DNA of 64,000 nucleotides from Pseudomonas mohnii (GTDB taxonomy: Bacteria > Pseudomonadota > Gammaproteobacteria > Pseudomonadales > Pseudomonadaceae), in contig NZ_FNRV01000001.1 of NCBI RefSeq assembly GCF_900105115.1, positions 124,001 to 188,000 of the forward strand, in the 5' to 3' direction. Below are positions 4,179 through 56,633 of the stretch, one piece after another; position 1 is the first letter of the stretch, and the number at the start of each line of letters is the position of its first letter. The translations under genes were made by a program, and so were the position numbers. The notes beneath the pieces are model-generated. The model saw only the letters and a list, made by a program, of their open reading frames with translations, made no database searches and was not told where the DNA came from.

Positions 4179-4196
4179 TAGTCTTTCCGGACGATG
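4179..4196 (+). promoter_or_regulatory. Steroid-regulon operator (18-bp dyad)
   Basis: TAGTCTTTCCGGACGATG with dyad GTCTT-TC-CGGAC. It lies 64 bp before the DUF1329 start, with a -10-like AACAAT at 4216-4221. It is one of 15 copies of the TAGTC-N6-GACGATG pattern in the window. Confidence 0.65.
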
Positions 4197-4260
4197 TTGG
4201 GGCCGGCAGAACACGAACAATGGGTCATCCACAGAGCCTTATCAGCGTAGGAGGCAACAC

Positions 4261-5643
4261 ATGAAAATAACAAGAACAGGTCTCATGCTCGCGGTCGCAT
4301 TCACAGCCAATAGCGGGTTGACGGGTTATGCGTACGCCGAGGTATCACCTGAGGAAGCCGCCAGGCTGGGCAAGGATCTGACGTGCGTCGGCGCCGTGCA
4401 AGCGGGTAACGCCGAAGGCACCATTCCGCCTTATACCGGCAAGTATCTGGGTGAAGTGCCGGGCTGGAATCACGTGAAGTACTCCGGTGACCAACCCGTT
4501 GATCCTTACGCAGCCGAGAAGCCGATCCTGGTGATCACTGCGCAGAACATGAGTCAGTACGAGTCGCACCTGACCGAAGGGCAGAAGGCGCTGCTCAAGA
4601 AGTATCCGACCACCTACAAAATGAACATTTACCCGGGCCACCGGGATTTCCGCTACCCCGATTACGTCTGTCGCCGCGTGATGGACAACGCGCTACACGC
4701 CAAACTGGTCAATGATGGCGCCGGTTTCACCGGGATTGGCCAGGTACCGTTCCCGATCCCGAAGAACGGCACCGAAGTGTTGTGGAACCACCAACTACCG
4801 GCACGTGCCTACACCGAGGAAAAAACCACGGATCTGGCCTCGGTCCTGCCCAACGGCAGCATCGGCTGGGGACGTGCGTACGCGCGTAACCTGTCGTTGG
4901 CGAACTCGCCGACCGCCGACTCGCGGACCGAAGAAAAGCTATCGGCCATGAGTAACAACATGACCCTCAAGCCGGCCCGAGACAACGGCACCCTCAGCAT
5001 TGCCCATGAACCCTACAACTACGGCACCGATGCGCGTCAGGCCTGGTCCTACAGCCCATCAACCCGGCGCGTACGGCAATTACCGGGCTACGGTTACGAT
5101 CAGCCAATGATCGGCACCAACGGCACCATGACCGTCGACGAAGACCGTTTGTTCAACGGTTCACCGGAGCGCTATACCTGGAAACTGATCGGCAAGCGCG
5201 AGATCTACAGCCCGGCCAACGCGTTCAAGGCGAACACTGGAACCGTCAAGTACGCCGACATCCTGACACCCAACCACCCCAATCCTGATTTCATGCGCTA
5301 TGAATTGCGCCGTGTGTGGGTGCTGGAAGCGGACTTGAAGGAAGGCTTTCGCCATGTCTATGGCAAGCGCGTGCTGTTCATCGACGAAGACACCTGGAAC
5401 GCGGTGATGGCCGACAACTACGACGCCCGCGGGCAGCTGTGGAAACACGCCATGATCAACTACTTCTACCACCCGGACATGAGCGGCTGGCAGGCTGGTT
5501 CGCAGTTCTTCATGGATCTTAACTCCGGCCAGTACACCGGTTATGGCATGACCAACGAGTCGAAGAAGGGGCCAATCCTCAACGAAGGCAAATTCACCCC
5601 TGACCAGTACACCGCAGACGCGGCGCGGGCTATCGGGCGGTAA
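4261..5643 (+). CDS. DUF1329 family exported protein
   Basis: A 460-residue protein with an N-terminal signal peptide (charged start, hydrophobic run to about residue 25, cleavage after AYA). The mature region begins SPEEAARLGKDLTCVGA, shared with the second DUF1329 protein at 55143-56555. Both also share the TYKM, YPSHRDFR/YPGHRDFR, VRQxPGYG and LYGKRxLxIDEDTW type blocks. DUF1329 proteins are predicted periplasmic or outer-membrane-associated and recur beside DUF1302 and RND genes in clusters for hydrophobic substrates. A role in steroid passage across the envelope is inference. It has its own operator upstream and a strong terminator after it, so it is probably monocistronic. Confidence 0.85.
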   Translation: MKITRTGLMLAVAFTANSGLTGYAYAEVSPEEAARLGKDLTCVGAVQAGNAEGTIPPYTGKYLGEVPGWNHVKYSGDQPVDPYAAEKPILVITAQNMSQYESHLTEGQKALLKKYPTTYKMNIYPGHRDFRYPDYVCRRVMDNALHAKLVNDGAGFTGIGQVPFPIPKNGTEVLWNHQLPARAYTEEKTTDLASVLPNGSIGWGRAYARNLSLANSPTADSRTEEKLSAMSNNMTLKPARDNGTLSIAHEPYNYGTDARQAWSYSPSTRRVRQLPGYGYDQPMIGTNGTMTVDEDRLFNGSPERYTWKLIGKREIYSPANAFKANTGTVKYADILTPNHPNPDFMRYELRRVWVLEADLKEGFRHVYGKRVLFIDEDTWNAVMADNYDARGQLWKHAMINYFYHPDMSGWQAGSQFFMDLNSGQYTGYGMTNESKKGPILNEGKFTPDQYTADAARAIGR

Positions 5644-5667
5644 TCATTTCGGTAGTGTCCGTTGACC

Positions 5668-5698
5668 AAGCCCTGCCGGTTTCCGGCGGGGCTTTTTT
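5668..5698 (+). terminator. Rho-independent terminator after DUF1329 gene
   Basis: Stem AAGCCCTGCCGG / CCGGCGGGGCTT with loop TTT, followed by a T run. Confidence 0.9.
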
Positions 5699-5803
5699 AC
5701 GACTGTCTCATCGGTGGTGAGCGCACCGCATCGCAGCCTGGCAGATGACTTTCTTGACCGCGCCTTGCGCCGTGAGGAAAACCTGCAGGCGCTGGCCCGT
5801 TAC

Positions 5804-6235
5804 CTACACCACCAGATGCGCCCTCAAGTCCCCCAGCATGTCCAGTTTCGAATAATCACGAAAGCTGAACCGCCAAACCCCATCGACACGTTCGAATTCA
5901 TCCAGATAACGCCCGGCGGCGATGGGCTGCAAAGGCAGGTCTTCAGTTGCCTGCAGCACCGTGTAACAGGCGCGTATCGTCGCCGTTCCCGACGCCTCGT
6001 CAATGTCGATGATCGGGTTGCTGATGACGTGTCGGGTGCGCGGCGTGCCGCACGGGTAGAGCTTGATTCGCTGCTGCCAGAGGCGCAGCAGGGCCGTGTG
6101 ATCAATGAAATGCTGGCTTTGAACCTTGATGCGGGCATGACGAAACAGCTCGGCGGCCTCGACCAGTTGTCCGCTGTCCATACACTCGGCGTAGCGGTAG
6201 AGCAGGTTGCAGATCTGTATCGCGCTGGTGCTCAT
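5804..6235 (-). CDS. Small SnoaL/NTF2-like protein
   Basis: A 143-residue protein. The ATG at 6235 is chosen because GAGG lies just upstream. An in-frame TTG at 6247 is less likely. The N-terminal helix reads LLYRYAECMDSG, giving a Tyr with an Asp five residues later, and a His follows in PRTRHVISN near residue 84. Tyr, Asp and His form the catalytic set in NTF2-fold dehydratases such as scytalone dehydratase and BaiE. It is probably a small isomerase or dehydratase acting on a steroid ring, but ketosteroid isomerase activity is equally possible. It lies after the MFS gene on the same strand, with a hairpin between them. Confidence 0.6.
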   Translation of the reverse strand: MSTSAIQICNLLYRYAECMDSGQLVEAAELFRHARIKVQSQHFIDHTALLRLWQQRIKLYPCGTPRTRHVISNPIIDIDEASGTATIRACYTVLQATEDLPLQPIAAGRYLDEFERVDGVWRFSFRDYSKLDMLGDLRAHLVV

Positions 6236-6245
6236 GGCAATCCTC

Positions 6246-7633: not shown

Positions 7634-7693
7634 TGCGGGTGCTCCCGGTCTTGTTCTGGTTGTCGCGATGCTCGGTCGGTCGCGGCTTTTTTT

Positions 7694-7711
7694 CATCGTC
7701 CGTTCAGACCA
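7694..7711 (-). promoter_or_regulatory. Steroid-regulon operator, minus strand
   Basis: Reads TGGTCTGAACGGACGATG on the minus strand, dyad GTCTG-AA-CGGAC, 60 bp before the MFS start. It is identical base for base to the site at 35103-35120. Confidence 0.65.
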
Positions 7712-7800: not shown

Positions 7801-7818
7801 TAGTCTTGTCGGACGATG
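7801..7818 (+). promoter_or_regulatory. Steroid-regulon operator, plus strand
   Basis: TAGTCTTGTCGGACGATG, dyad GTCTT-GT-CGGAC, 116 bp before the OYE start. It forms a divergent promoter pair with the site at 7694-7711. The region 7634-7934 holds no gene. Confidence 0.65.
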
Positions 7819-7934
7819 TTTCGCCCGCGTTCAACGTCAATCATTCAGCCCATATTCGCTGGTTTGTCAGCGCTTGCCACCGCCGTGGCAAGCCCCTCGA
7901 CAGCCAGAAAACAATAAGAAGCTGAGGTATTGAA

Positions 7935-9020
7935 ATGAGCGTCTTGTTCGAGCCGGTAGTCCTGGGCGAGCTGCAACTGGCCAACCGCATTGTCATGGCC
8001 CCCATGACGCGTAGTCGCGCTCTTGCCGATGCGGTGCCCGGCAGCGCCATGGTCGATTATTACCGTCAGCGTGCCGGTGCCGGGTTGATCGTGGCCGAAG
8101 GCACTGCGCCTTCCGCCAGCGGCCTGGGCTACTGCCGCACCCCGGCCATTTACAGCAGCGAGCAGATCGCCGGATGGCGGCAGGTCACCGAGGCGGTGCA
8201 TGCCGAGGGCGGGCGCATCGTCCTGCAACTGATGCACGTTGGTCGCGCCGCCAGCCACTACAACAAGCCAGCCGGGGCGGCAACGGTTGCACCTTCGGCG
8301 CTGCGCGCGCGCACCCAGGTGTTCAGTGATGTTGCGGGCCTGGTGGACACCGACACGCCAAAGGCACTGACCTTGCAGGGCATCCAAGAGGTCATCGATG
8401 ACTATCGCCAGGCGGCGTTGAATGCGCGCCTGGCCGGCTTCGACGGTGTCGAGCTGCACTGCACCAGCGGTTACCTGCCCATGCAGTTCATTGCATCGGG
8501 CAGCAACCAGCGCGACGATGCCTATGGCGGTGATGTGGCAGGGCGGGTGCGTTTTGCCAGGGAAGTGATCGAGGCCATGGCCAGCGCGATCGGCGCCGGA
8601 CGCGTCGGTTTTCGCCTGTGCCCCGGCAACCCCTACAACGACATCGACGACCGTGATCCGGCGGCCACGACCGCGGCCTTGTGCGAAGCCCTGGCGGCAT
8701 TGGACCTGGCTTACCTGCACATCATGCGCTCCCCCCTGGCCGACCTCGACGCCTTTGCCCTGGCGCGTCGGCACAGTCCTCACGCACTGATTCTCAACGA
8801 TGGTTTCGACGGCTCTTCGGCCAGTGCCGCTCTCGCGTCGGGCGAGGGGGCTGCTGTGTCGTTCGGTCGTCATTTTATTGCCAACCCCGACCTGGTGGAG
8901 CGCCTCAAGCGTGGCCTGCCGCTGAGCGGTTTCGACCGCAAGACCCTCTATACGCCAGGCTCGGCTGGCTACTCGGATTACCCCGCCTATCAAGCGATCG
9001 CCCAGGAGATGGCGCAATGA
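7935..9020 (+). CDS. Old yellow enzyme family ene-reductase (NemA-like)
   Basis: A 361-residue FMN-dependent TIM-barrel flavoprotein. Family blocks are NRIVMAPMTRSRA near residue 16, LQLMHVGRAA near 96, QRDDAYGGDVAGR near 195, and FGRHFIANPDL near 315. At the substrate-binding pair, normally His-x-x-Asn or His-x-x-His, it reads ELHCTSGYL, so the Asn is replaced by Ser. That may change carbonyl anchoring. OYEs reduce enones with NAD(P)H; a 3-keto-delta4 or delta6 steroid is a plausible substrate (inference). It is the first gene of a run reaching 15945, and its stop overlaps the next start (ATGA). Confidence 0.85.
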   Translation: MSVLFEPVVLGELQLANRIVMAPMTRSRALADAVPGSAMVDYYRQRAGAGLIVAEGTAPSASGLGYCRTPAIYSSEQIAGWRQVTEAVHAEGGRIVLQLMHVGRAASHYNKPAGAATVAPSALRARTQVFSDVAGLVDTDTPKALTLQGIQEVIDDYRQAALNARLAGFDGVELHCTSGYLPMQFIASGSNQRDDAYGGDVAGRVRFAREVIEAMASAIGAGRVGFRLCPGNPYNDIDDRDPAATTAALCEALAALDLAYLHIMRSPLADLDAFALARRHSPHALILNDGFDGSSASAALASGEGAAVSFGRHFIANPDLVERLKRGLPLSGFDRKTLYTPGSAGYSDYPAYQAIAQEMAQ

Positions 9021-10870
9021 ACCTGAACGACTTGACCGGCGCCCTGCGGACCAAAGTGGTGCCACGGGAGCAGACCCAGGCGCTGCTGGATCAACGCTCG
9101 GCGGCCGCCGGCCAGATCAAGCCCGGTGACCTCTACACCTTGGCAGATCGCCTGGAACATCAGGCGCGCGAACTGGGCGAACGCCCGTTCCTGATCTACG
9201 GCGAACAGGTTCTGAGCTACCTCGAAGTCGATGCGCGGGCCAATCAGATGGCTCACACCTTTTATGCCAACGGCCTGCGGGCCGGCGATGTCTGCGCCCT
9301 GGCCATGGAAAACCGCCCGGCGTTCTTCTGTACCTGGTTCGGCCTGGTCAAGCTGGGCGTGGTAGTGGCCTTCATCAATACCCAGGTCAGCGGCCGTCCG
9401 CTGCTCCATGCGTTGCAGACCACTGACGCCAAGGCGTTGGTGGTCGGCGAAGAGTGCCTGGCCAACGTGCAGGCCACCGAAGGTTTCCCCGAGCTACCGT
9501 GCTGGCTGATCCGCGACCCGGAAAATCCCTGGACAGAAGCGCTGCCCAAAGGCATCGACGGACATTTCGATGCGCGCCTGGAAAAAGCGCCGCGTACACC
9601 GTTCCCCCGTGATATCCGCGCCCACATCGATGCGCAGACGCCAACCCTGCTGATCTTTACCTCGGGTACCACCGGTTTGCCCAAGGCAGCGCGCTACAGC
9701 CATATGCGCTGGATGTCCTCCGGCGATGTGATGGAAGTCACCCTGCAAGCCACTTGCGACGACGTCTTTTATTGCTGCTTGCCGCTGTACCACGGAGCCG
9801 CCGCCACCTCAGTGACCTCCACCGCGTTGCGGGCCGGGGCCGCCATCGTGGTGCGCCGCAAGTTCAGCGTGCGCGAATTCTGGAACGATGTGGCACTTCA
9901 CCGGATCAGCATCTTCCAGTACATCGGCGAAATCTGCCGCTATCTGCTCAATCAACCGCAACAAGCCCACGACCGTCAGCACACCCTGCGCTGCATGCTC
10001 GGCGCGGGCCTGTCGCCGGACACCTGGCAGCGCTGGCTGGAACGCTTCGGGCCGATCCAGGTGTTCGAGGGCTGGGGGGCCACGGAGGCCAACGCCGCGA
10101 TCATCAACGTCGACAATTACTTTGGCTCCTGCGGTCGCGTGCCGGACTGGAACAAGACCAACCTGCGGCTGGTCCGTTACGACGTCGAGAACGACTGCCA
10201 CCCACGGGACGAAAACGGTTTCTATCAAGTCTGCAAAGTGGGTGAGATCGGCGAGGCGATGGGTTTTATCGTCGATCACCCGCAGATTGGCGGCGGGCGT
10301 TTCGAGGGCTATACCTCGGCCGAAGCCACCGAGAGCAAGATCCGCCGCAACGTGCTGCGCGAGGGCGACGCCTATTGGAGCTCCGGTGACTTGCTGCGCG
10401 AAGACGCCGACGGTTACTGCTATTTCGTCGACCGCATCGGTGACACCTACCGCTGGAAAAGCGAAAACGTTTCGACCCAGGAAGTCGCCGATGCACTGAG
10501 CGATCTGCCAGGGCTTGAACTGATCAACATCTATGGCGTCCAGGTCCCGGGGCATGAAGGACGCGCCGGTATGGCGGCGGTGCTGATGCAACCGGGCCAT
10601 TCCTTCGATCCCGACGCGCTGTTTGCCCTGACCGAGGCGCGTCTGCCGCGTTATGCGGCCCCGGTATTCGTGCGGGTCGCCCGGGCGGCCGACCTGACCG
10701 CCAGCTTCAAGTTGCGCAAGGTCGATCTGCAGCGCCAGGGCTACTGTCCGACACGTTGCAGCGACCCACTGTTCATCCGCGACGAGCAAACCCGATCCTA
10801 TGTGCCGTATTCGCCGCAGGCCCTGACGCGAGCCGGCCTTGCACCGTTCGCGGTGGCCAGCCATGACTGA
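9017..10870 (+). CDS. FATP-type very-long-chain/bile acyl-CoA synthetase
   Basis: A 617-residue AMP-forming ligase whose ATG overlaps the OYE stop. Motifs are IFTSGTTGLPKAA near residue 212, the FATP-type GWGATEANAAIINVDN near 354, and YWSSGDLLREDADGYCYFVDRIGDTYRWKSENVST around 455-490. The FATP subfamily includes bile acyl-CoA synthetases (SLC27A5), so activation of a C24 bile-acid side chain is the favoured role (inference). Together with the ligases at 2491 and 29298 it makes three CoA ligases, enough for C24 acid, C22 acid and the HIP propionate. Confidence 0.8.
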   Translation: MNLNDLTGALRTKVVPREQTQALLDQRSAAAGQIKPGDLYTLADRLEHQARELGERPFLIYGEQVLSYLEVDARANQMAHTFYANGLRAGDVCALAMENRPAFFCTWFGLVKLGVVVAFINTQVSGRPLLHALQTTDAKALVVGEECLANVQATEGFPELPCWLIRDPENPWTEALPKGIDGHFDARLEKAPRTPFPRDIRAHIDAQTPTLLIFTSGTTGLPKAARYSHMRWMSSGDVMEVTLQATCDDVFYCCLPLYHGAAATSVTSTALRAGAAIVVRRKFSVREFWNDVALHRISIFQYIGEICRYLLNQPQQAHDRQHTLRCMLGAGLSPDTWQRWLERFGPIQVFEGWGATEANAAIINVDNYFGSCGRVPDWNKTNLRLVRYDVENDCHPRDENGFYQVCKVGEIGEAMGFIVDHPQIGGGRFEGYTSAEATESKIRRNVLREGDAYWSSGDLLREDADGYCYFVDRIGDTYRWKSENVSTQEVADALSDLPGLELINIYGVQVPGHEGRAGMAAVLMQPGHSFDPDALFALTEARLPRYAAPVFVRVARAADLTASFKLRKVDLQRQGYCPTRCSDPLFIRDEQTRSYVPYSPQALTRAGLAPFAVASHD

Positions 10871-11948
10871 TCTCGACGAGAACGGTCACGAACTGCGCAG
10901 CGGCCTTCGCTATCCGTGGCCACAGGCGCCCGAAGCCGGACAAGTGCTCGAAGTGGCGCCGGGGGTTTTCTGGCTGCGCATGCCGCTGCCGTTTCGCCTG
11001 GACCACATCAATCTCTACCTGCTGCGCCACACCGACGGCTGGATCGCGGTGGACACCGGCATGAACACCGAACAGAGCCGTGAGGTCTGGGACCGGGTGT
11101 TGACTGAGGTCTGTGCAGGCCAGCCTTTGCTGGCGGTGGTTTGCACCCACTTTCACTCTGACCACGCCGGTGTGGCGGCCTGGCTGTCGGAGCGCTTTCA
11201 GTGCCCGGTGTACATGACCGCCAGCGAGTTCCAGTCGTTGCATGTGCGGTTTCCCGCCGGACAACCAATGGGCTGGGACTTTCTCGATTTTTATCGCAAG
11301 GCCGGCGTCACTGACGAGCAGAGCAGGGAAATGTTCGGGGTGATGAGCAATGCGCATTTCTTGCCCGCACCCCTGAACCATTTCCGCCGTCTGCGCGAAG
11401 GCAGCGTCCTGGAAATCGGCGGTCGTACCTGGCAAGTGGTCGTCGGTCGTGGCCACTCGCCGGAGCACGCCTGTCTGTACGCCGCCGATGACGGCTTGCT
11501 GATCTCCGGCGATCAGGTACTGCCGCGCATCACCTCCACCGTTGGCGTGCATGCCACCGAACCCTTGGCCAACCCGCTGCGCGACTGGCTCGAGTCCATC
11601 GAGCAGTTGCGCGCCTTGCCCGACAGCGTGCTGGTACTGCCGGCCCACGAGCGGCCGTTCTTCAATTTGCATCGGCGCCTGGATCAACTGGAGGCGCATC
11701 ACCGGGCGCATCTGGCGCTGCTGCTGGCCAACTGTGACGAGCCGCGCACGGCAGTCGAACTGATGGCCGTTTTATTCCCCAGGTTGTCCAGTCGTTTCGA
11801 CGAACTGATGGCACTTGGTGAAACGTTGGCGCATGCCAACTACCTGCTGGCCGAAGGGTCGCTGGTGCGGGAAGAGGACCGGGGGCGATATCGCTACCGG
11901 CACGCTGTAAGGGGAGCGTGCGCAACGACACCACTCAAGGTGTTCTGA
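10863..11948 (+). CDS. Metallo-beta-lactamase-fold hydrolase
   Basis: A 361-residue protein that starts inside the ligase C-terminus (8-bp overlap). The zinc motif THFHSDHAG is near residue 94, followed by GRGHSPEHACLY near 197, ISGDQVLP near 216, and VLPAHERPF near 260. These are the His/Asp ligands of a binuclear MBL centre. MBL-fold members act as thioesterases or lactonases. Its place between a bile-acyl ligase and the aldolase genes suggests release or proofreading of a steroid acyl-CoA (inference). The exact reaction is unknown. Confidence 0.75.
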   Translation: MTDLDENGHELRSGLRYPWPQAPEAGQVLEVAPGVFWLRMPLPFRLDHINLYLLRHTDGWIAVDTGMNTEQSREVWDRVLTEVCAGQPLLAVVCTHFHSDHAGVAAWLSERFQCPVYMTASEFQSLHVRFPAGQPMGWDFLDFYRKAGVTDEQSREMFGVMSNAHFLPAPLNHFRRLREGSVLEIGGRTWQVVVGRGHSPEHACLYAADDGLLISGDQVLPRITSTVGVHATEPLANPLRDWLESIEQLRALPDSVLVLPAHERPFFNLHRRLDQLEAHHRAHLALLLANCDEPRTAVELMAVLFPRLSSRFDELMALGETLAHANYLLAEGSLVREEDRGRYRYRHAVRGACATTPLKVF

Positions 11949-12014
11949 GCGGGCGGCACGGCGGCAGTGTTGAACATTCCAGGCAGCTTTCGGCTGCCCT
12001 AGAGGAGAGAAAGT

Positions 12015-13685: not shown

Positions 13686-13778
13686 TCGACCGCTCAACGG
13701 CCGGGGCGCTCACGCGTGCCCGGTCCTCTATACCAACTGGAAATCGCCGTGGCGAGTACGCTTCGGCAGGGAGGCACT

Positions 13779-14990: not shown

Positions 14991-14994
14991 GCAC

Positions 14995-16169: not shown

Positions 16170-16187
16170 TAAGCCATTTGGACGATG
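16170..16187 (+). promoter_or_regulatory. Steroid-regulon operator (one strong half)
   Basis: TAAGCCATTTGGACGATG. The right half TGGACGATG is conserved and the left half is weak. A -10-like GACTAT starts 21 nt after it. It precedes the YCF48-RND pair by 143 bp. Confidence 0.5.
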
Positions 16188-19938: not shown

Positions 19939-21174
19939 ATGCAAGATGTTGTCTTGACCCATGAAGCCCTGGCGAGTCTTGGCCTGGACCTCACACGTTT
20001 CAACCAGTTGGTGGGCGAAGTCTACGACGGCGCCCTCGATCCGAAACTGATGGCCAACGCCCTCAAGAGCCTGCTCAATGTCTACGATGCCAATTACGTC
20101 ACCCTCATCTTGCGGGTGCCAGAGCAACCTGACATGGGCCTGATGATCATCGCCGGCGATATCGAAGGTGCCGGTGACGTCAACTACATGACTTACCCGC
20201 AGACCAACACGCCGTTCGTCAACCAGCCGCTGGATCGCGTGTTCGCCGTCGATGACATCATGAGTCCCACGGAGTGGGAGCACACGGCCTACTTCAAGAC
20301 ATTCTGCGGTCCCAACGACGTTTATCATGTGATGGGTGCCGACATTTCCACCCCGGACGGCGGCAAGGTGCGTTTTCGCATCACCCGGCCCAAGCGCTCT
20401 CCCAACTTTTCCGCACAGGAGCGGACACTGTGCGCGATGTTTCTGCCGCACCTGCGCCGGGCCTTGCAGTTGCACAATCTTCTGGACCGCAGCGAGTCAC
20501 TGAGCGAGCTGTACTCCCAGGCCATCAGCCGTTTGTCGGTGGCCACCCTGGTGCTCGACGAGAGCGGCAGTGTGTTGCAGGTCAACGCAGTGGCCCAGGA
20601 AATCCTCGCGCGTTCGGACGGCCTGAAAATGGTGGGCGGGCGCCTGGAGGCGACTTATCCCAGCGACAACCGCGAGCTGCAACGCTTGATTCGGGGTGCT
20701 TTCGCTCCGGATGCACCGAAGGGTGCCGAAGCCATGTCGGTGACCCGGCCTTCGGGGCTGGTCAATCTGGGGGTAGTGGTGGAGTCGATTCCGTCCCTGG
20801 ACTGGGCCGAGGAAAAGGGCCAGCCGGCGGCGCTGGTGTACATCCGCGACGCGGCGAGCAAATCCCTTGCCAGCGAGGCGGTGACCAAGCAGCTGTTCAA
20901 CCTGACCAAGGCAGAGACGGCGTTGGCCATGGAGCTGACCAACGGCCTGTCCCTGGAAGAAGCCGCCGAAGCCCTGAACATCCGACGCAACACCGCCCGG
21001 GCGCATTTGCGCTCCATCTTCTCCAAGACTGGCGTACGCCGCCAGACCGAGCTGGTGCGCATCCTGCTTAACAGCGTGGTGGCCCTGGGCAAACCCAAGC
21101 TGGCGTTGAAGGCTGTCGAGAAAATCAAGGTGCCGCCGCTGAAACTGGCCGAGCCTGTCTATCGCCAGGCTTAA
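19939..21174 (+). CDS. LuxR-type transcriptional regulator, TeiR-like (1)
   Basis: A 411-residue protein starting at 19939 after GAGGAG. A conserved N-terminal sensory region (to ~185) is followed by a PAS-like segment (VLDESGSVLQVNAVAQEIL near 210) and a C-terminal LuxR helix-turn-helix (LTKAETALAMELTNGLSLEEAAEALNIRRNTARAHLRSIFSKTGV, 330-375). It is a clear paralogue of the regulator at 53822-55030. There is no autoinducer-binding or receiver domain. Size and class match TeiR, the LuxR-type activator of testosterone genes in Comamonas testosteroni. It probably senses a steroid and activates the 18-bp operator promoters (inference). Confidence 0.8.
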   Translation: MQDVVLTHEALASLGLDLTRFNQLVGEVYDGALDPKLMANALKSLLNVYDANYVTLILRVPEQPDMGLMIIAGDIEGAGDVNYMTYPQTNTPFVNQPLDRVFAVDDIMSPTEWEHTAYFKTFCGPNDVYHVMGADISTPDGGKVRFRITRPKRSPNFSAQERTLCAMFLPHLRRALQLHNLLDRSESLSELYSQAISRLSVATLVLDESGSVLQVNAVAQEILARSDGLKMVGGRLEATYPSDNRELQRLIRGAFAPDAPKGAEAMSVTRPSGLVNLGVVVESIPSLDWAEEKGQPAALVYIRDAASKSLASEAVTKQLFNLTKAETALAMELTNGLSLEEAAEALNIRRNTARAHLRSIFSKTGVRRQTELVRILLNSVVALGKPKLALKAVEKIKVPPLKLAEPVYRQA

Positions 21175-21309: not shown

Positions 21310-21327
21310 TAGTCCGCATAGACGATG
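21310..21327 (+). promoter_or_regulatory. Steroid-regulon operator
   Basis: TAGTCCGCATAGACGATG, strong left half GTCCG. The -10 GATACT at 21349-21354 sits in CGATACTGGGTG, the same string at the same spacing as after the site at 55064-55081. It is 53 bp before the hydroxysteroid dehydrogenase start. Confidence 0.7.
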
Positions 21328-26836: not shown

Positions 26837-26854
26837 CATCGTCTCAACGGACTA
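26837..26854 (-). promoter_or_regulatory. Steroid-regulon operator, minus strand
   Basis: Reads TAGTCCGTTGAGACGATG on the minus strand. A -10 GATAGT begins 21 nt downstream. It is 63 bp before the SDR start of the hsaEGF operon. Confidence 0.7.
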
Positions 26855-26919: not shown

Positions 26920-26937
26920 TAGTCCGCTTTGACGATG
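26920..26937 (+). promoter_or_regulatory. Steroid-regulon operator, plus strand
   Basis: TAGTCCGCTTTGACGATG with -10-like GATGAT at 26958-26963, 73 bp before the HsaA-type start. Divergent partner of 26837-26854. Confidence 0.7.
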
Positions 26938-30955: not shown

Positions 30956-30973
30956 CTCGCCAAATGGACGATG
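30956..30973 (+). promoter_or_regulatory. Steroid-regulon operator (one strong half)
   Basis: CTCGCCAAATGGACGATG. The right half TGGACGATG is shared with the site at 16170-16187. A -10-like CATGCT starts 21 nt later, and the DUF1302 start is 65 bp away. Confidence 0.5.
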
Positions 30974-35102: not shown

Positions 35103-35120
35103 CATCGTCCGTTCAGACCA
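35103..35120 (-). promoter_or_regulatory. Steroid-regulon operator, minus strand
   Basis: Reads TGGTCTGAACGGACGATG on the minus strand, identical to 7694-7711. It is 125 bp before the hsaD start. Confidence 0.6.
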
Positions 35121-35128: not shown

Positions 35129-35146
35129 TAGTCTCATCGGACGATG
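35129..35146 (+). promoter_or_regulatory. Steroid-regulon operator, plus strand
   Basis: TAGTCTCATCGGACGATG. A -10-like TAATCA begins 21 nt after it. It is 90 bp before the SDR at 35237. Divergent pair with 35103-35120, centres 26 bp apart. Confidence 0.65.
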
Positions 35147-41191: not shown

Positions 41192-41209
41192 AATCACTAA
41201 AACGGACTA
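41192..41209 (-). promoter_or_regulatory. Steroid-regulon operator, minus strand (left half only)
   Basis: Reads TAGTCCGTTTTAGTGATT on the minus strand. The left half TAGTCCG is perfect and the right half degenerate. CAGACT begins 22 nt later. It is 59 bp before the dehydrogenase start. Confidence 0.5.
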
Positions 41210-41279: not shown

Positions 41280-41297
41280 TAGTCTCAACGGACGATG
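41280..41297 (+). promoter_or_regulatory. Steroid-regulon operator, plus strand
   Basis: TAGTCTCAACGGACGATG with -10-like CACAAT at 41318-41323, 65 bp before hsaC. It would drive the ~10-kb operon to 51071. Confidence 0.7.
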
Positions 41298-42253: not shown

Positions 42254-42262
42254 GGAATTGTC

Positions 42263-43141: not shown

Positions 43142-43153
43142 GGATTAGCGACT

Positions 43154-43951: not shown

Positions 43952-43967
43952 GGCGAGGACAGTGAAC

Positions 43968-46734: not shown

Positions 46735-46743
46735 GGGAACGCC

Positions 46744-47901: not shown

Positions 47902-47911
47902 GGAACGGGCC

Positions 47912-48970
47912 ATGGACTTCACTTTTACCGATGACCAGCTGACGTTTCGCGAAGCCATCAGTCGTTTCCTGATGACCGAAGCCGCCCCGGAAATGCTCCG
48001 GGAAATCTGGGAGACCGATGTCGGTCGTTCACCGGACCTGCGCGGCAAGATTGCCGAACAGGGCCTGACCGCCTTGTCGGTGCCGGAGGCCGAGGGCGGC
48101 CTGGGCATGGACGATTTGGCCTGGGCGTTGATGACCCAGGAGCTGGGGTATTACGCGATTCCCGACTCCCTGGCCGACACTGCGTATGTCGCCACCGGGC
48201 TGCTCACCAGCCTGCCAAGCGGGCACCCGGCCCGCAGCAGTCTTTTACCGCGTATTGCCGAAGGCACCGTGCGCATTGCCATCAGTCATCCCGTCAACCC
48301 GCTGGTCAGTGATGCTCAGCTGGCTGAAGTCTTGATCCTGACCGATGGCGACGACATTCATATCGTGCCGCGCGCCCAGGTGGATGTTCAGCAACGGCCG
48401 AGCATCGACGCGTCCCGGCGTCTGGGGCGGGTTATCTGGAACCCGACCCCGGCCACCTGCGTGGCCAGCGGCGCTTTGGGTCGTACCCTGCAGGCACGAC
48501 TGCTCGAGCGTGGCGCCTTGTCGGTGGCCGGGCAACTGCTCGGGCTGGCGCAACGCATGCTCGATTTGTCCGTGGACTACGTCGCGCAGCGCAAACAGTT
48601 CGGCAAGCCGATCGGCAGCTTCCAGGCCGTCAAGCATCACCTGGCCGATGTTGCCCGGCATATCGAACAGGCCAAACCGGTGCTGTACCGCGCCGCGCAT
48701 GGCCTGGCCAGGGGCGATGCCCATGCCGGCGTATGGGTTTCCCAGGCCCGCCTGGCCTGCTGCGAAGCCAGCTGGATCGCGGCGCGCAAGGGTATTCAGG
48801 TGCATGGCGCGATGGGCTACACCTGGGAAGTCGACCTGCAGATGTTCATGAAACGTGCCTGGGCGCTCGATGCGTCCTGGGGGGATCGCGGTTTCCATAA
48901 AACCCGTGTCGGCGAGTACGTGTTCGCCGATGGTGCCCGCCTGGGCCCGGGCCATACCTTCGAGGAGTGA
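47912..48970 (+). CDS. Acyl-CoA dehydrogenase, short paired subunit (FadE31/32/33-like)
   Basis: A 352-residue protein starting MDFTFTDDQLTFREAISRFL. It has VPEAEGGLGMDDLAWALM near 60 and QRKQFGKPIGSFQAVKHHLADV near 225. GIQVHGAMGYTWEVDLQMFMKRAW near 295 is the usual beta-subunit signature. The middle domain is shortened. It is probably the second subunit of an alpha2beta2 dehydrogenase in C/D-ring breakdown, after the FadE30-like gene and 3 bp before the thiolase. Confidence 0.75.
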   Translation: MDFTFTDDQLTFREAISRFLMTEAAPEMLREIWETDVGRSPDLRGKIAEQGLTALSVPEAEGGLGMDDLAWALMTQELGYYAIPDSLADTAYVATGLLTSLPSGHPARSSLLPRIAEGTVRIAISHPVNPLVSDAQLAEVLILTDGDDIHIVPRAQVDVQQRPSIDASRRLGRVIWNPTPATCVASGALGRTLQARLLERGALSVAGQLLGLAQRMLDLSVDYVAQRKQFGKPIGSFQAVKHHLADVARHIEQAKPVLYRAAHGLARGDAHAGVWVSQARLACCEASWIAARKGIQVHGAMGYTWEVDLQMFMKRAWALDASWGDRGFHKTRVGEYVFADGARLGPGHTFEE

Positions 48971-48973
48971 GTC

Positions 48974-50125
48974 ATGCCAGAGGCCTATATTGTTGATGCA
49001 CTGCGCAGCCCGACCGGCAAGCGCAAGGGTGCCTTGAGCGACGTTCACGCCATTGACCTGGGCGCCCGGGTGCTCAAGGCGTTGGTGGAGCGCAACGCCA
49101 TTCCCGGCGAAGACTATGACGATGTGATCTTCGGTTGCGTCGATACCATCGGTGCCCAGGCCGGGGACATCGCCCGCACCAGTTGGCTGGCCGCCGGTTT
49201 GCCACTGAACGTGCCCGGCACCACGATTGATCGTCAGTGCGGCTCGTCACAACAGGCGCTGCATTTCGCCGCGCAGGCGGTGATGAGCGGCACTCAGGAC
49301 GTGATAGCCGTCGGCGGGGTGCAAACCATGACCCGGATTCCGATTTCCTCGGCCATGCTGGCCGGGCAGGCGCTGGGTTATCCCGATCCGTTTTCCGGCA
49401 GTGAAGGCTGGCGCGCACGGTTCGGCGATCAACCGGTCAACCAGTTCTACGCCGCGCAGCGCATCGCCGATCATTGGGGCATCAGCCGCGAGCAGATGGA
49501 GGCCTTCGCCCTGCAAAGTCATGCCCGCGCCCTGGCCGCCATCGAGAGCGGGCGATTCGCCCGGGAAATCGTTGCCTGCAACGGTTTGCGAGTGGATGAA
49601 ACGCCGCGCCTGACCAGTCTTGCGAAAATGGCCGAATTGCAGCCGGTGGACCCGCAATTTCCCTCGATCACCGCCGCTGTTTCAAGCCAGACCTGCGACG
49701 CCTCGGCGGCATTGCTGGTGGTGTCGGAGGCAGCGCTCAAGCGTTATGACCTGACGCCTCGCGCGCGTATCCATCACCTGACGGTGCTGGGCGATGACCC
49801 GATCTGGCACTTGACCGCGCCGATCGCCGCGACCCGTCGGGCCCTGGAGAAAACCGGTTTGCGCATGAGCGATATCGACCGGGTAGAGATCAACGAAGCC
49901 TTCGCCTCCGTGGTCATGGCCTGGGCCAAGGAGCTCGACTACGACCCGGCGCGCACCAACGTCAACGGTGGCGCCATCGCCCTGGGTCACCCGCTGGGTG
50001 CCACGGGAGCCCGGCTGATGACCACGCTGCTGAACGAGCTGGAATGCAGCGGTGGCCGTTACGGCCTGCAAACCATGTGCGAAGGCGGTGGCCAGGCCAA
50101 CGTCACGATCATCGAACGCCTCTAG
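48974..50125 (+). CDS. fadA6: Thiolase, FadA6-like
   Basis: A 383-residue thiolase. Nucleophile Cys89 is in DRQCGSSQQAL, NEAFASV lies near 310, the base His is in GHPLGATGARLM near 341, and the second Cys in CEGGGQAN near 372. All catalytic residues are present. Length and context (echA20, fadE30, ipdAB) match FadA6, which performs the thiolytic step on the C/D-ring acyl-CoA. A general acetyl-CoA thiolase is less likely in this operon. Confidence 0.8.
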   Translation: MPEAYIVDALRSPTGKRKGALSDVHAIDLGARVLKALVERNAIPGEDYDDVIFGCVDTIGAQAGDIARTSWLAAGLPLNVPGTTIDRQCGSSQQALHFAAQAVMSGTQDVIAVGGVQTMTRIPISSAMLAGQALGYPDPFSGSEGWRARFGDQPVNQFYAAQRIADHWGISREQMEAFALQSHARALAAIESGRFAREIVACNGLRVDETPRLTSLAKMAELQPVDPQFPSITAAVSSQTCDASAALLVVSEAALKRYDLTPRARIHHLTVLGDDPIWHLTAPIAATRRALEKTGLRMSDIDRVEINEAFASVVMAWAKELDYDPARTNVNGGAIALGHPLGATGARLMTTLLNELECSGGRYGLQTMCEGGGQANVTIIERL

Positions 50126-50192
50126 GGTTTTCCCTTATCCATCCGTACCGCCGCCCGTGGGGCGTGCGGTCGTGCAGTCAAAGGAGTCAAGC

Positions 50193-51071
50193 ATGGCTAT
50201 ATGTTCAGGCCGCACCGTGATCATCACCGGGGCCGGCGGCGGGCTCGGTCGCGCCTATGCGCTGGCGTTCGCCGCAGCGGGCGCCAACGTGGTGATCAAC
50301 GATATCCGCGCCGATGCGGCGCAAGACGTCGCGGGCGAAATCCGCGCCAGTGGTGGCCAGGCCATCGCCAACAGTGACGACATCACCACCCTGGCCACCG
50401 CGCAGCACATCATCGACGCGGCGTTGGGGGCCTTCGGTGAAGTGCATGTGCTGGTCAACAATGCCGGGGTCCTGCGCGACCGCATGTTTATCAGCCTCAG
50501 CGAAGAAGACTGGGACATGGTCATGCGCGTGCACCTCAAGGGGCATTACTGCCTGGCCAACCTGCTGGGGCGGCGTTGGCGTGATCTGGCCAAGGCCGGT
50601 ACACCGGTTGACGGTCGCATCATCAACACCAGCTCCGGCGCGGGTCTCCAGGGCTCGGTGGGGCAGTCCAATTATTCAGCGGCCAAGGGCGCGATTGCCT
50701 CGTTGACGCTGGTCCAGGCGGCCGAACTGGCGCGTTACGGCATCACCGCCAACGCACTGGCCCCTGCAGCGCGTACCTCGATGACCGAAAGCGCGATGCC
50801 TGATGTGGTGAAGAAGCCCGAGGACGATAGCTTCGATGCCTGGGCCCCGGAAAACGTTGCACCGCTGGTGGTGTGGCTTGGCAGCACGGAATCGGCCCAC
50901 GTCAATGGCCAGGTGTTCGAGAGCCAGGGCGGGCGAATTTCCCTCGGGGACGGCTGGCGCACCGGCGTGACCCGCGACAAGGGGGCGAGGTGGCAGGTGG
51001 AGGAAATTGGTGGCGCCGTAGCCGAGATCCTCGCCGAAGCCCCGAAGGCTCAGAAGGTGTGGGGCACGTAG
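50193..51071 (+). CDS. Short-chain dehydrogenase, MFE-2-like (hydroxyacyl-CoA dehydrogenase candidate)
   Basis: A 292-residue SDR starting after AAAGGAG. It has TGAGGGLGRAYALAFAAAGANVVINDI at 12-38, the type found in multifunctional enzyme 2 (17-beta-HSD4). NNAGVLRDRMF (~90), NTSSGAGLQGSVGQSNYSAAKGA (Ser, Tyr, Lys) and NALAPAARTSMTES follow. A ~35-residue tail extends the usual SDR length. It ends the operon that begins at hsaC. Resembles the SDR Rv3548c of the mycobacterial C/D-ring cluster; the reaction is inferred. Confidence 0.75.
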   Translation: MAICSGRTVIITGAGGGLGRAYALAFAAAGANVVINDIRADAAQDVAGEIRASGGQAIANSDDITTLATAQHIIDAALGAFGEVHVLVNNAGVLRDRMFISLSEEDWDMVMRVHLKGHYCLANLLGRRWRDLAKAGTPVDGRIINTSSGAGLQGSVGQSNYSAAKGAIASLTLVQAAELARYGITANALAPAARTSMTESAMPDVVKKPEDDSFDAWAPENVAPLVVWLGSTESAHVNGQVFESQGGRISLGDGWRTGVTRDKGARWQVEEIGGAVAEILAEAPKAQKVWGT

Positions 51072-51171: not shown

Positions 51172-51189
51172 TACCCTGTTTTGACGATG
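51172..51189 (+). promoter_or_regulatory. Steroid-regulon operator
   Basis: TACCCTGTTTTGACGATG with -10-like TACAAA at 51210-51215, 58 bp before the IpdF start at 51248. The left half is degenerate. Confidence 0.5.
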
Positions 51190-53821: not shown

Positions 53822-55030
53822 ATGCAAAGTCGCTTGACGAACACACAGGTCCTGACTGAGATGGGGCTGGAGCTTTCAGACTACGAACGGCTCATCGGCA
53901 ACATGTACGATTCGGCCATGGATATCCGCCGTTTGGGTGATTCGTTGCGCCAGCTGCGTTCACTGTTCAAGGCCAATTTCGTGACCTTGATCCTGCGCGT
54001 TCAGGATGAGCCGCTGCTGTCGCCGATGATGGTCGCCGGCGATGTCGAGCTGGGGGAGGGGGGCATCAACCATTACGCCTACTATTCCAAATCCACGCTG
54101 TTCGACAATCTGCCCACCGACACGGTTTTCACCGTGGATGAATTGGTGAGCGAGGCCGAGTGGCTTGGTTCTTCTTTTTATCTGCTCTACTGCCAACCCT
54201 ATAACTGTCATCAGATGCTGGGTGCCGATATCCGCATGCCCGATGGCAGCGCCGTACGTTTCCGGATCAACCGCCCACGGGATCAGGCACGGTTTTCTCA
54301 CGTCGATCGAGCCATGTGCGAGATGCTCCTGCCGCATTTGCGCCGTGCGTTGCACATGCATTCACAGCTTGATCGCAGTGAATCCCTGGGCAGCCTGTAT
54401 TCGCAAACCATCAGCCGCATGGCGGTGGCGACCTTCGTCCTCGATGAGAACGGCAGTGTAGTGCAGCTCAATTCGGTGGCCCGGGAGATTCTCGACAGTC
54501 AGGACGGCCTTAAAGTCGTTGGCGGTCGGCTCGAAGCCATTTACCCGAGTGACAATCGCGAACTGCTGCGCCTGGTGCGTAATGCCTTTCAGCGGGCAAG
54601 CTCGGGCGGTGCCGGCGTGCAGGGTGCCGAGGCCATGTCGATTTCCCGGCCCTCGGGGAAAGTCAGCCTGGGCGTGGTAGTGGAATTGATACCGACGCAG
54701 GAGCTGGTCGAGGGCAGGGGGAAACCGACGGTCGTGGTGTATGTGCGCGACGCGGTCAGCAAGTCGCTGGTGAGTAACGTGGCGACTTCGCAGTTGTACA
54801 ACCTGACGCCGGCGGAAACCGCGCTGGCCCTGGAGCTGGCCAACGGTCTGTCGCTGGAGGAGGCGTCGGAGACATTGAGTATTCGCCGCAACACAGCCCG
54901 TGCGCACTTGCGTTCGATTTTTTCCAAGACCGGTGTCCGTCGCCAGACCGAACTGGTGAGGATCATGCTCAACAGTGTCGTGGCGTTGGCGCAGCCCCAC
55001 GGACCGGGTTTGGCCGAGCCAGCGCTTTAA
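53822..55030 (+). CDS. LuxR-type transcriptional regulator, TeiR-like (2)
   Basis: A 402-residue paralogue of the regulator at 19939. ATG 53822 is well spaced from GGAG; GTG 53816 is too close. N-terminal MGLELSDYERLIGNMYDSAMD parallels LGLDLTRFNQLVGEVYDGALD in regulator 1. A PAS-like VLDENGSVVQLNSVAREIL (~205) follows. The C-terminal HTH (LTPAETALALELANGLSLEEASETLSIRRNTARAHLRSIFSKTGVRRQTELVRIMLNSV) is nearly identical to regulator 1, including the recognition helix, so both may bind the same operator but respond to different ligands (inference). Confidence 0.8.
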   Translation: MQSRLTNTQVLTEMGLELSDYERLIGNMYDSAMDIRRLGDSLRQLRSLFKANFVTLILRVQDEPLLSPMMVAGDVELGEGGINHYAYYSKSTLFDNLPTDTVFTVDELVSEAEWLGSSFYLLYCQPYNCHQMLGADIRMPDGSAVRFRINRPRDQARFSHVDRAMCEMLLPHLRRALHMHSQLDRSESLGSLYSQTISRMAVATFVLDENGSVVQLNSVAREILDSQDGLKVVGGRLEAIYPSDNRELLRLVRNAFQRASSGGAGVQGAEAMSISRPSGKVSLGVVVELIPTQELVEGRGKPTVVVYVRDAVSKSLVSNVATSQLYNLTPAETALALELANGLSLEEASETLSIRRNTARAHLRSIFSKTGVRRQTELVRIMLNSVVALAQPHGPGLAEPAL

Positions 55031-55063: not shown

Positions 55064-55081
55064 TAGTCCGTGCGGACGATG
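55064..55081 (+). promoter_or_regulatory. Steroid-regulon operator (best dyad)
   Basis: TAGTCCGTGCGGACGATG. Both halves are strong: GTCCG-TG-CGGAC is a perfect 5-bp dyad. The -10 GATACT at 55103-55108 lies in CGATACTGGGTG as at 21349. It is 61 bp before the DUF1329 start. Confidence 0.75.
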
Positions 55082-55142
55082 CTTCTCGATCCTTGGGCTG
55101 CCGATACTGGGTGACCGCTATCGGTAACCAAGGAGAATAAAA

Positions 55143-56555
55143 ATGACCGGCAGTAACCTGGCCTCCAGTTGTCTTGTCTCGCGGCCTGCCAACGCCACTC
55201 CCAGCTGGGTGTTGGGGTTGATATTGGGATGCAGTGCAATCGCCACGGCGAATGCGGCACCCGAAGATGTGGAGCGCCTGGGCAAGGATTTGACCTGTGT
55301 CGGCGCCGACAAGAGCGCCAATGCCGATGGCAGCATCCCGGCGTTCAGTGGCAAGTGGCTGGGGGTGCCACCCCACGTGGACTTCAAGGGCACCGGCAAC
55401 CATCCCATTGACCCGTACCCGGACGAAAAACCGCTGTTCGTGATTACCACGGCCAACCTGGCGCAATACAGCCAGTATCTGTCCGACGGGCAGAAAGCCT
55501 TGTTCAAGCTGTACCCGGCTACGTACAAGATGCCGGTCTATCCCTCGCACCGGGATTTCCGTTTCGATGATGGGGTGTGCAATGCCACCCGCGAAAACGC
55601 CAGCATCGCGCGACTGGTCGATGACGGTGAAGGGGTGGTGGGCAAAACCGGTGGCACGCCCTTTCCCGTACCACGCAGCGGCCTGGAGCTGCTGAAGAAC
55701 GCCTCGGCCTTCACCTTGCGCGCCTGGACCGAGGAGTACACCTCCGACAACGCCTATGTGCTCAAGGACGGCAACATCAACTGGGGTCGCGTGCACTCGC
55801 GCAACCTGGCGCCGTCGCTGGAACCGGGCAAGAAAGGCGAGACGGTGGGCAACTCGGCGTTCTACCTCAACGAAACGCTTCTGCCACAACGGGACAAGGG
55901 CGAGATCAATACCGGCACCGAGTTCTGGAACGACAAGACCGAACCCCGCCAGGCCTGGCGTTACGACCCCGGTACCCGTCGTGTGCGCCAGTCGCCGGGG
56001 TATGGCTTCGACATGTCGTTCCCTGGCAGCGGCGGTTCGATCACCGTGGACGAAGTGCGGCTGTTCAACGGCTCGGGCCAGCGTTATGACTGGAAGATCG
56101 TCGGCAAGCGCGAGATGTTCATCCCCTACAACACGTATCGCCTGCACGCGGCGAATCTCAAGTACGCCGATTTGCTGACCCCGGGCCACTTCAATCAGGA
56201 CGCCATGCGCTACGAGCGTCATCGGGTCTGGGAGCTGGAAGGCACCCTGAAGCCGGGTTATCGCCATCTGTACGGCAAACGCAAGCTGTACATCGATGAA
56301 GACACCTGGTTCCCGATGCTGGCCGACAACTACGACAACCGTGGCGAGCTATGGCGGACGTCGATGCTGAATTTCTTCTACGCCTATGAAAGCCAGCGAC
56401 CGCAAGCGGGTGTGGGGCTGTACTACGACCTCAATGCCGGCAGCTACCTGGCGTTCAACCTGATCAATGAACAGCGCAGTGGTTACCAGTTGAACAAGCC
56501 GGGTTTCAGCCCGCGGGACTTCGGCCCGGAAGCCGCCCGTCGATTCGGTCAATAG
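55143..56555 (+). CDS. DUF1329 family exported protein (second copy)
   Basis: A 470-residue protein with a long N-region and a hydrophobic signal core (VLGLILGCSAIATANAA, cleavage near residue 39). The mature start EDVERLGKDLTCVGADKSANADGSIP parallels the copy at 4261. Shared blocks include YPSHRDFRFDDGVCNATRENA, RVRQSPGYGFDM and LYGKRKLYIDEDTWFPMLADNYDNRG. Monocistronic between the operator and a terminator. Envelope steroid-handling role inferred. Confidence 0.85.
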   Translation: MTGSNLASSCLVSRPANATPSWVLGLILGCSAIATANAAPEDVERLGKDLTCVGADKSANADGSIPAFSGKWLGVPPHVDFKGTGNHPIDPYPDEKPLFVITTANLAQYSQYLSDGQKALFKLYPATYKMPVYPSHRDFRFDDGVCNATRENASIARLVDDGEGVVGKTGGTPFPVPRSGLELLKNASAFTLRAWTEEYTSDNAYVLKDGNINWGRVHSRNLAPSLEPGKKGETVGNSAFYLNETLLPQRDKGEINTGTEFWNDKTEPRQAWRYDPGTRRVRQSPGYGFDMSFPGSGGSITVDEVRLFNGSGQRYDWKIVGKREMFIPYNTYRLHAANLKYADLLTPGHFNQDAMRYERHRVWELEGTLKPGYRHLYGKRKLYIDEDTWFPMLADNYDNRGELWRTSMLNFFYAYESQRPQAGVGLYYDLNAGSYLAFNLINEQRSGYQLNKPGFSPRDFGPEAARRFGQ

Positions 56556-56565
56556 CCGTGGAGCA

Positions 56566-56594
56566 GGGTGCTCATCGAGCAGTGAGCACCCTTT
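56566..56594 (+). terminator. Terminator after second DUF1329 gene
   Basis: GGGTGCTCA-TCGAGCAG-TGAGCACCC followed by TTT. Confidence 0.7.
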
Positions 56595-56615
56595 GAGAAT
56601 GGATCGCGTTTGATC

Positions 56616-56633
56616 TAGTCCAACTGAAGGATG
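56616..56633 (+). promoter_or_regulatory. Probable steroid-regulon operator before kshA
   Basis: TAGTCCAACTGAAGGATG. The left half TAGTCC is perfect; the right half is GAAGGATG instead of GGACGATG. A -10-like AATGAT begins 21 nt later, and kshA starts 100 bp away. Confidence 0.45.

Follow-up and report, generated by a model that had tools for sequence, protein, structure and literature searches.

A probable TeiR/TesR-type operator before the steroid-degradation operons of Pseudomonas mohnii

What switches on the many operons of a large steroid-degradation cluster in concert? The question is raised by a 64,000-nt stretch of Pseudomonas mohnii DNA (assembly GCF_900105115.1, contig NZ_FNRV01000001.1; G000:C1:124001-188000), which we refer to as the window and which comes from a genome of 6.59 Mb in two contigs. 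Pfam and NCBIfam matches identify the window as such a cluster, with KshA, an HsaA-like monooxygenase, an extradiol dioxygenase of the BphC/TesB kind and a CoA transferase, alongside an HMGL-like aldolase and acetaldehyde dehydrogenase, ChsH2-like, thiolase, DUF1302, DUF1329, YCF48 and MMPL proteins and two LuxR-type regulators. An 18-bp site of the form TAGTC-N6-GACGATG stands before nearly all of its operons, and judging from sequence comparison this is very probably the operator, in a class II position, of TeiR/TesR-type LuxR-family activators, here the two regulators P0001 and P0002. It is the enrichment of the site, its fixed spacing to a -10-like hexamer, its conservation, its co-occurrence with the regulator and its presence in a TeiR-bearing genome that together point to a probable TeiR/TesR operator.

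The 18-bp site and its background

The original prediction listed 15 copies before operon heads, and all 15 coordinates do carry a sequence of this type. The pattern is exact at eight (4179+, 7801+, 21310+, 26837-, 26920+, 35129+, 41280+ and 55064+), has one mismatch at two (7694- and 35103-), two mismatches at three (16170+, 51172+ and 56616+) and four mismatches at 30956+ and 41192-, each of which is without significance alone; this places ten of the 15 within one mismatch. The sites are given below in window coordinates, with the -10-like hexamer that follows each (G numbers denote compared genomes):

4179..4196, +, site TAGTCTTTCCGGACGATG, before DUF1329 gene 4261; AACAAT 4216-4221; the same 18-mer precedes the orthologue in G251, G207 and G265
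7694..7711, -, site TGGTCTGAACGGACGATG, before an MFS transporter gene; GAGCAT 7668-7673
7801..7818, +, site TAGTCTTGTCGGACGATG, before operon 7935-15945; AATCAT 7839-7844
16170..16187, +, weaker site TAAGCCATTTGGACGATG (13.4 bits), before YCF48-like, MMPL and LuxR-type gene 1; GACTAT 16208-16213
21310..21327, +, site TAGTCCGCATAGACGATG, before two SDR genes; GATACT 21349-21354
26837..26854, -, site TAGTCCGTTGAGACGATG, before an SDR/FAA-hydrolase/acetaldehyde dehydrogenase/HMGL-like operon; GATAGT 26811-26816
26920..26937, +, site TAGTCCGCTTTGACGATG, before an HsaA-like, reductase and CoA-ligase operon; GATGAT 26958-26963; the same 18-mer is found at the HsaA orthologue in G251, G207 and G265
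30956..30973, +, weak site CTCGCCAAATGGACGATG (right half only), before a DUF1302 gene and old yellow enzyme; CATGCT 30994-30999
35103..35120, -, site TGGTCTGAACGGACGATG, before an alpha/beta hydrolase gene; CAGCAT 35077-35082
35129..35146, +, site TAGTCTCATCGGACGATG, before SDR genes and a SnoaL-like gene; AATCAT 35168-35173
41192..41209, -, weak site TAGTCCGTTTTAGTGATT (left half only), before two acyl-CoA dehydrogenase genes; CAGACT 41165-41170
41280..41297, +, site TAGTCTCAACGGACGATG, before the ten-gene ring-degradation operon 41363-51071; CACAAT 41318-41323
51172..51189, +, site TACCCTGTTTTGACGATG (16.2 bits), before SDR, MaoC, thiolase and LuxR-type gene 2; TACAAA 51210-51215, without the final T
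55064..55081, +, site TAGTCCGTGCGGACGATG, before DUF1329 gene 55143; GATACT 55103-55108
56616..56633, +, weaker site TAGTCCAACTGAAGGATG (12.3 bits), before the KshA gene (3-ketosteroid 9alpha-hydroxylase, 56734); AATGAT 56654-56659

The four divergent pairs first described (7694/7801, 26837/26920, 35103/35129 and 41192/41280) are all present, and the regulon of about 45 genes then proposed agrees with the 44 genes that our gene models place downstream of the 15 sites. Operon 7935-15945 comprises old yellow enzyme, CoA ligase, metallohydrolase, DUF1302, thiolase-like and ChsH2-MaoC genes, and the first gene of operon 41363-51071 encodes a BphC/TesB-like extradiol dioxygenase. Likely gene starts were revised behind 7694- (7633), 21310+ (21381), 26837- (26773) and 30956+ (31039); in the SDR gene after 51172 the first ATG falls at the predicted -10, and the likely start is a GTG at 51248 behind GGAGG.

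Loose matching is uninformative here, in that the window holds 116 matches with at most three mismatches against 39.5 +/- 6.7 in shuffles, and matches with two or three mismatches are by themselves little evidence. A scoring matrix trained on the ten best window sites (at most one mismatch) was compared with 20 stretches of 20 kb (400 kb) of the own genome, giving 11 sites of at least 16 bits in the window against none in the control and 17 against six at 12 bits or more; ten of the 11 are training sites, and the other is 51172+. While the matrix scan covered about 0.6 Mb of the own genome, word searches covered all of it: TAGTC-N6-GACGATG occurs exactly 11 times, ten of them at C1:107721-179081, and the 17-mer RGTCYNNNNRGACGATG occurs without mismatch 12 times in the 6.59 Mb, again with ten between C1:107721 and 179081 (71 kb). 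So far as the genome scan suggested with the original prediction has been run, the strong sites (11 against 0) and the 17-mers (ten of 12 at the cluster) leave it standing. With one mismatch allowed, the 17-mer gives 95 genome matches and its reversed control 71, so that one-mismatch matches outside the cluster are mostly background. The eleventh exact match, at C1:6034204, was rejected as a regulon member since many genomes that lack the regulator also contain its 18-mer TAGTCGTTGTGGACGATG.

Two further claims hold in part. Absence from genes is true of the window sites of at least 16 bits, whereas two of the 17 matches of at least 12 bits lie inside genes (43991-, 15.5 bits; 52379-, 12.1 bits); none of the 15 sites overlaps a gene model, a test that is not independent because some gene starts were set with the sites in view. 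The dyad GTCYG-N2-CGGAC describes the core well, whereas the site is asymmetric outside it, with TA on the far side and ATG on the promoter side. This ATG was considered as a start codon and rejected, as the predicted -10 comes after it and candidate starts lie further on, behind words resembling ribosome sites.

Promoter geometry and conservation

Three strong matrix sites (C1:107721-, 112800+ and 118113-) that were missed at first, together with one palindromic site, lie upstream of the window, and these three bring the own sites to 18. In 17 of the 18 a -10-like hexamer begins 19-21 nt past the site, much as had been claimed, with its A-N3-T pair at +22/+26 in 11, at +23/+27 in five and at +21/+25 in one. 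At any other offset up to 40 the pair is counted twice at most, and a count of 11 was reached in 0 of 5000 shuffles. The same holds for 88 non-redundant sites of the own genome and its relatives, left once sites alike in their downstream sequence had been removed: A occupies column 22 in 74% and column 25 in 56%, T occupies column 26 in 70%, and no column beyond the hexamer approaches columns 22 and 26. Since the 88 sites were chosen by matrix score, conservation within the site is partly built in, which is not true of the -10 columns. No conserved -35 hexamer is seen in the 88-site columns apart from the site itself, and the xANNNT peak at +21 to +26 amounts to a sigma-70-like -10 with a poor -35. 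If the hexamer is taken as -12 to -7, arithmetic on this inferred start puts the dyad centre at -42.5 and the promoter-side ATG at -35 to -33. A dyad near -42.5 that overlaps the -35 is the class II activator layout, the position here being read from the -10-like hexamer and a predicted start.

Site and -10 are also what is best kept in relatives. At the 55064 promoter, before the DUF1329 gene downstream of regulator 2, the site is present in all 38 upstream rows (19 non-redundant), and over the 19 the major-base frequency is 0.95 in the site and 0.93 in the -10, against 0.66 in the 20-nt spacer, 0.66 in the 30 nt upstream and 0.83 in the 8 nt after the -10. The KshA promoter gives corresponding values of 0.90 (site), 0.70 (-10), 0.62 (spacer), 0.64 (upstream) and 0.60 (after) over 35 non-redundant rows. 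Counting the own row in each case, site 16170 is found with at most two mismatches in 6/6 orthologous upstream rows, 56616 with at most three in 45/45 and 30956 in 3/5; the right half of 51172, TTGACGATG, stands 24-28 nt before the aligned start in 33/40, and the left half of 41192, TAGTCCGTTT, is found by eye in the own and four of six other orthologous upstream excerpts (5/7 in all). Some orthologous rows for the weak sites are near-identical, and related genomes are not independent.

Among the matches listed, identical 18-mers follow their operons across rearranged gene order, TAGTCTCAACGGACGATG with the dioxygenase operon (G251, G207, G265, G015, G255 and G243), TAGTCCGCTTTGACGATG with HsaA and TAGTCTTTCCGGACGATG with DUF1329. 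The regions compared beside G000 come from ten of the 52 same-genus genomes with a regulator homologue (G251, G265, G015, G243, G203, G277, G240, G255, G131 and G207), which were picked for many sites or for the regulator and are not a random sample. Three of them (G203, G277 and G240; L110-L118) belong to a more distant regulator group of the genus, at about 38-42% identity, with steroid clusters of their own and the same box, in places fully palindromic as TCGTC...GACGATG.

The regulon extends beyond the window. The palindrome TCGTCCGATCGGACGA at C1:107754-107773 lies upstream, 15 bp from the 107721- site, and palindromes akin to it, which may act in both directions, recur in G251, G207, G203, G277 and G240. 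The same box-bearing region holds a gene for a methyl-accepting chemotaxis receptor (L032 5301-7004, C1:109301-111004), next to an amidase gene; after the amidase gene, behind the 112800+ site, there is a gene for an FAD-dependent dehydrogenase, possibly KstD-like. A link of TeiR to chemotaxis has been described (PMC6678751). Further upstream, a second cluster at C1:75-92 kb, in which the matrix finds no site of at least 15 bits, contains genes of similar kinds (DUF1302, DUF1329, YCF48, MMPL, dioxygenase, HsaA-like, FAA, acetaldehyde dehydrogenase and HMGL; paralogues at about 30-59% identity) and probably serves another catabolic pathway under different control. Within the main cluster, 37400-38770 yielded no convincing gene: open reading frame (ORF) 37427-38854+ has no Pfam match and 37087-38295- has implausible matches only.

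The two regulators and rival readings

Both regulator genes lie inside the cluster, with KshA, HsaA-like, BphC-like and CoA-transferase genes nearby:

19939..21174, +, LuxR-type regulator 1, P0001 (first-start ORF 19843); GerE domain (Pfam); 47% identity to TeiR
53822..55030, +, LuxR-type regulator 2, P0002 (ORF 53816); LuxR-type by NCBIfam and alignment; 43% identity to TeiR

These identities are to the UniRef TeiR of Comamonas testosteroni, over 371 columns for P0001 and 373 for P0002. P0002 is without a Pfam match at 1e-5, yet its alignment to TeiR runs through the helix-turn-helix (HTH) region, which is almost identical among P0001, P0002, TeiR and the regulator of the Comamonas-like genome G521. 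No acyl-homoserine-lactone-binding domain is matched by Pfam on either ORF at 1e-5. The sensor part of regulator 2 is predicted to consist of a GAF-like domain, a long helix and a PAS-like domain ahead of the LuxR-type HTH; the fold matches listed include phytochrome sensor modules, VqmA and the sensor region of one sensor kinase, and are only a hint because model confidence is modest (mean pLDDT 75.6, pTM 0.49). The closest regulator proteins among the named genome contigs listed are from Pseudomonas sp. PB120 (93%) and P. alkylphenolica (92%).

Box and regulator occur together well beyond this genome. A P0002 homologue at E <= 1e-40 is present in 52 of 298 same-genus genomes (own included), and at least five 17-mer matches, a cut chosen once the counts were seen, occur in 49 of these 52 as against seven of the 246 others. 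Mean counts are 8.2 and 1.5, and with no cut applied a Mann-Whitney test gives p ~1e-28. Homologue genomes below the cut are G222 (73% complete) and G277, with four matches each, and G224, with none. The 41 matches in the seven outliers are spread over contigs or for the most part far apart, and 28 are GGTC words; a profile search found no regulator homologue in these genomes, and their matches were rejected as real sites on all three counts. A test with other patterns and cut-offs in the family of G521 (150 genomes, G521 included) found TAGTCYNNNNRGACGATG in 7/7 genomes with a TeiR homologue (29 matches) and in 8/143 others (nine matches). Around regulator genes themselves, each of the best 80 of 466 loci (80/80) has one or more sites reaching 16 bits, with 184 such sites in 1.48 Mb and none in the 0.4-Mb control; the taxa include Pseudomonas, Zoogloea, Stutzerimonas, Serpens and others. 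In a class-level sample a regulator homologue occurs in only 5/369 genomes. TeiR-type genes with nearby boxes were also seen in Pseudomonas fragi, P. lundensis, P. psychrophila, P. bubulae and P. paraversuta (L183, L186-L190, L198 and L203).

The regulator of G521 is 96% identical to the UniRef TeiR of C. testosteroni over 93% of its length, and the box is found there before HsaA/TesA2-like, TesB-like, SDR, DUF1329 and thiolase-like genes. In the stretches examined, all eight boxes of at least 20 bits have the -10 pair within one nt of its usual place; one (2787157+) may fall in a gene, and another (2925872-) is 3 kb from the nearest matched gene. A variant, TAGTCCATGTGAAGGATT, can be read by eye on the divergent side of HsaA, where from the published gene order the presumed tesA1 is expected. 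TesR is required to induce the tesB-tesR, tesA1-tesG and tesA2-ORF18 clusters (PMC6895838), so the boxes at the TesB-like and HsaA/TesA2-like genes of G521 stand where these genetic results call for a TesR site. According to unpublished data cited in PMC8399759, cholate use by P. stutzeri Chol1 was delayed when a TeiR-like gene was deleted.

From these comparisons we would propose that a dimer of P0001 or P0002 probably senses a steroid or early catabolite through its N-terminal sensor domains and binds the dyad GTCYG-N2-CRGAC, centred at about -42.5. The bound dimer would then activate sigma-70 polymerase at promoters that lack a recognisable -35 and whose -10 begins 19-21 nt past the site, in class II fashion, with the promoter-side ATG occupying about -35 to -33, and one operator type would switch on about 44 window genes and more upstream. 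In this scheme we infer the protein-DNA contact, the ligand, activation as opposed to repression and the action of both paralogues; activation is preferred because of the position of the site, the missing -35 and the published role of TeiR. The single regulon under LuxR-type activators first proposed, with the site against the -35, is favoured by the one motif, the fixed promoter distance, the conservation across rearranged gene orders and the co-occurrence in two bacterial families. The regulator genes end gene runs that open with a box (16170+ and 51172+) and are more likely read from those operons; positive feedback via read-through is thus possible.

Several observations weigh against this assignment. 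Site 51172 is the sole own site without the A-N3-T pair, and 30956+ and 41192- have one good half only. G224 encodes a TeiR-type homologue (E 3e-98; C21:98381-99463, L236) and has no match to either box pattern, its regulator possibly having changed specificity or being a remnant. More distant homologues, at 30-35% identity, occur in G431, G418 and G609; G431 has only four exact matches, which lie on separate contigs or at large distances, and for G418 and G609 none is among the matches listed. Neither regulator gene has a box directly before it (32 and 40 upstream rows, at least 72% identity), and the idea that they do was rejected, the best match having four mismatches for regulator 1 and three, in one row, for regulator 2. 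Kinase activity has been ascribed to TeiR, which is described as a polar membrane protein (PMC6678751), and a simple one-component activator does not account for this; in the modest-confidence model of regulator 2 no kinase catalytic domain was seen, which does not settle the published claim. Finally, the co-occurrence also fits any other protein that travels with the steroid cluster.

The reading that survives best beside it, and is compatible with it, is that the paralogues share the operator and act oppositely or on different substrates, one activating and one repressing or tuning. Near-identical recognition helices in proteins of only 57% overall identity would suit this, as would the LuxR-type repressor of the 3,17beta-hydroxysteroid dehydrogenase gene in C. 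testosteroni (cited in PMC6678751 and PMC8700777), whereas some genomes with a single homologue (E <= 1e-40) keep many matches, such as the eight of G131; we regard such a division of labour as possible and somewhat doubtful.

It is improbable that the box serves another transcription factor (a repressor, or an activator that escaped notice) and that the LuxR-type genes are passengers. Genes that travel together are inseparable by co-occurrence, and RepA, HsdR, TetR and others act on some C. testosteroni steroid genes (PMC6678751). Against this, the only transcription-factor domain among the Pfam matches (61 of 120 window ORFs and nine of 34 listed L032 ORFs, all of at least 150 amino acids, so that a small regulator could be missed) is the GerE of ORF 19843, and the dyad lies just upstream of a -10 that has no -35 partner, as suits an activator. 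Sites of repressors tend to overlap the promoter.

It is more improbable still that an alternative sigma factor reads the site as its upstream promoter element, as the fixed distance to the -10 might suggest. Conservation centres on a 12-bp dyad core within an 18-bp site, and GACGAT at about 21 nt from the -10 is too distant for a -35/-10 pair; moreover the -10 resembles that of sigma-70 (xATnnT), and the same Pfam matches include no sigma factor. Chance, or a coding artefact of a motif common in GC-rich genes, has a negligible probability, since for all the matches at two or three mismatches that abound in genes, the barely exceeded reversed control and the TAGTCG or TAGTCA 18-mers that recur in genomes without the regulator, the control holds no match of at least 16 bits, the sites cluster before operons, and site and -10 are more conserved than the spacer.

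Comparison with known systems

Since 2004 the literature has named TeiR/TesR as what activates steroid degradation in C. testosteroni, and LuxR-type class II regulons are well known; what appears new is the operator, the promoter geometry and the map of the regulon. No printed TeiR/TesR operator was found in the open-access collection searched, a scope outside which the subscription literature, including the main TeiR paper, falls. For bile-acid-degrading Proteobacteria, a 2021 review described the mechanisms of regulation as 'largely unknown' (PMC8399759). Given a precise operator whose promoter position is fixed, the regulon would be predictable in any genome, gene starts could be corrected and steroid biosensors built, and TeiR as a DNA-binding activator could be tested directly against a kinase cascade. 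In its broadest form the proposal, on which we are evenly divided, is that 9,10-seco steroid degradation across beta- and gammaproteobacteria (Comamonas, Zoogloea, Pseudomonas and Stutzerimonas) is governed by one shared operator, TAGTCYG-N2-CRGACGATG in fixed class II geometry. The operator's asymmetry would set direction, with TA on the far side and ATG on the promoter side as a -35 stand-in, palindromes TCGTC...GACGA would serve both directions, and TeiR would be a one-component DNA-binding sensor, not chiefly a kinase.

Of the systems that invite comparison, KstR/KstR2 of actinobacteria likewise exert cluster-wide control of steroid catabolism and differ in being TetR-type repressors, a family without a match among the 61 window and nine L032 ORFs (of at least 150 amino acids) compared with Pfam. 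Homologues of KstR/KstR2 are absent from bile-acid-degrading Proteobacteria (PMC8399759). VqmA (PAS and LuxR-type HTH, ligand DPO) also joins a sensor domain to a LuxR-type HTH in one protein and ranks 5 and 6 among the listed fold matches, at a TM-score by query of only ~0.2; its ligand and regulon are other ones, and it is not known to have a second N-terminal sensor domain. CrbR, a LuxR-family activator in Pseudomonas, has its ACTU motif, likewise an imperfect inverted repeat, ahead of a metabolic regulon, and that motif was found by comparison of the same kind (PMC5715377); CrbR is, unlike the regulators here, a two-component response regulator for acetate use (PMC5715377).

Closer in layout are the Lux box and LuxR class II promoters, with a dyad near -42.5 overlapping the -35, a LuxR-type HTH and a sigma-70-like -10, all of which are found or predicted here. 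The sequence differs (GTCYG-N2-CRGAC), as does the predicted sensor, GAF-like and PAS-like in place of an acyl-homoserine-lactone domain, and no quorum signal is implied. Closest of all is the TeiR/TesR regulon of C. testosteroni itself, with homologous regulators, a nearly identical HTH, orthologous ring-degradation operons and, in the genome with a 96% TeiR, the same box and spacing; P. mohnii departs from it in gene order and in having two paralogues where one has been described.

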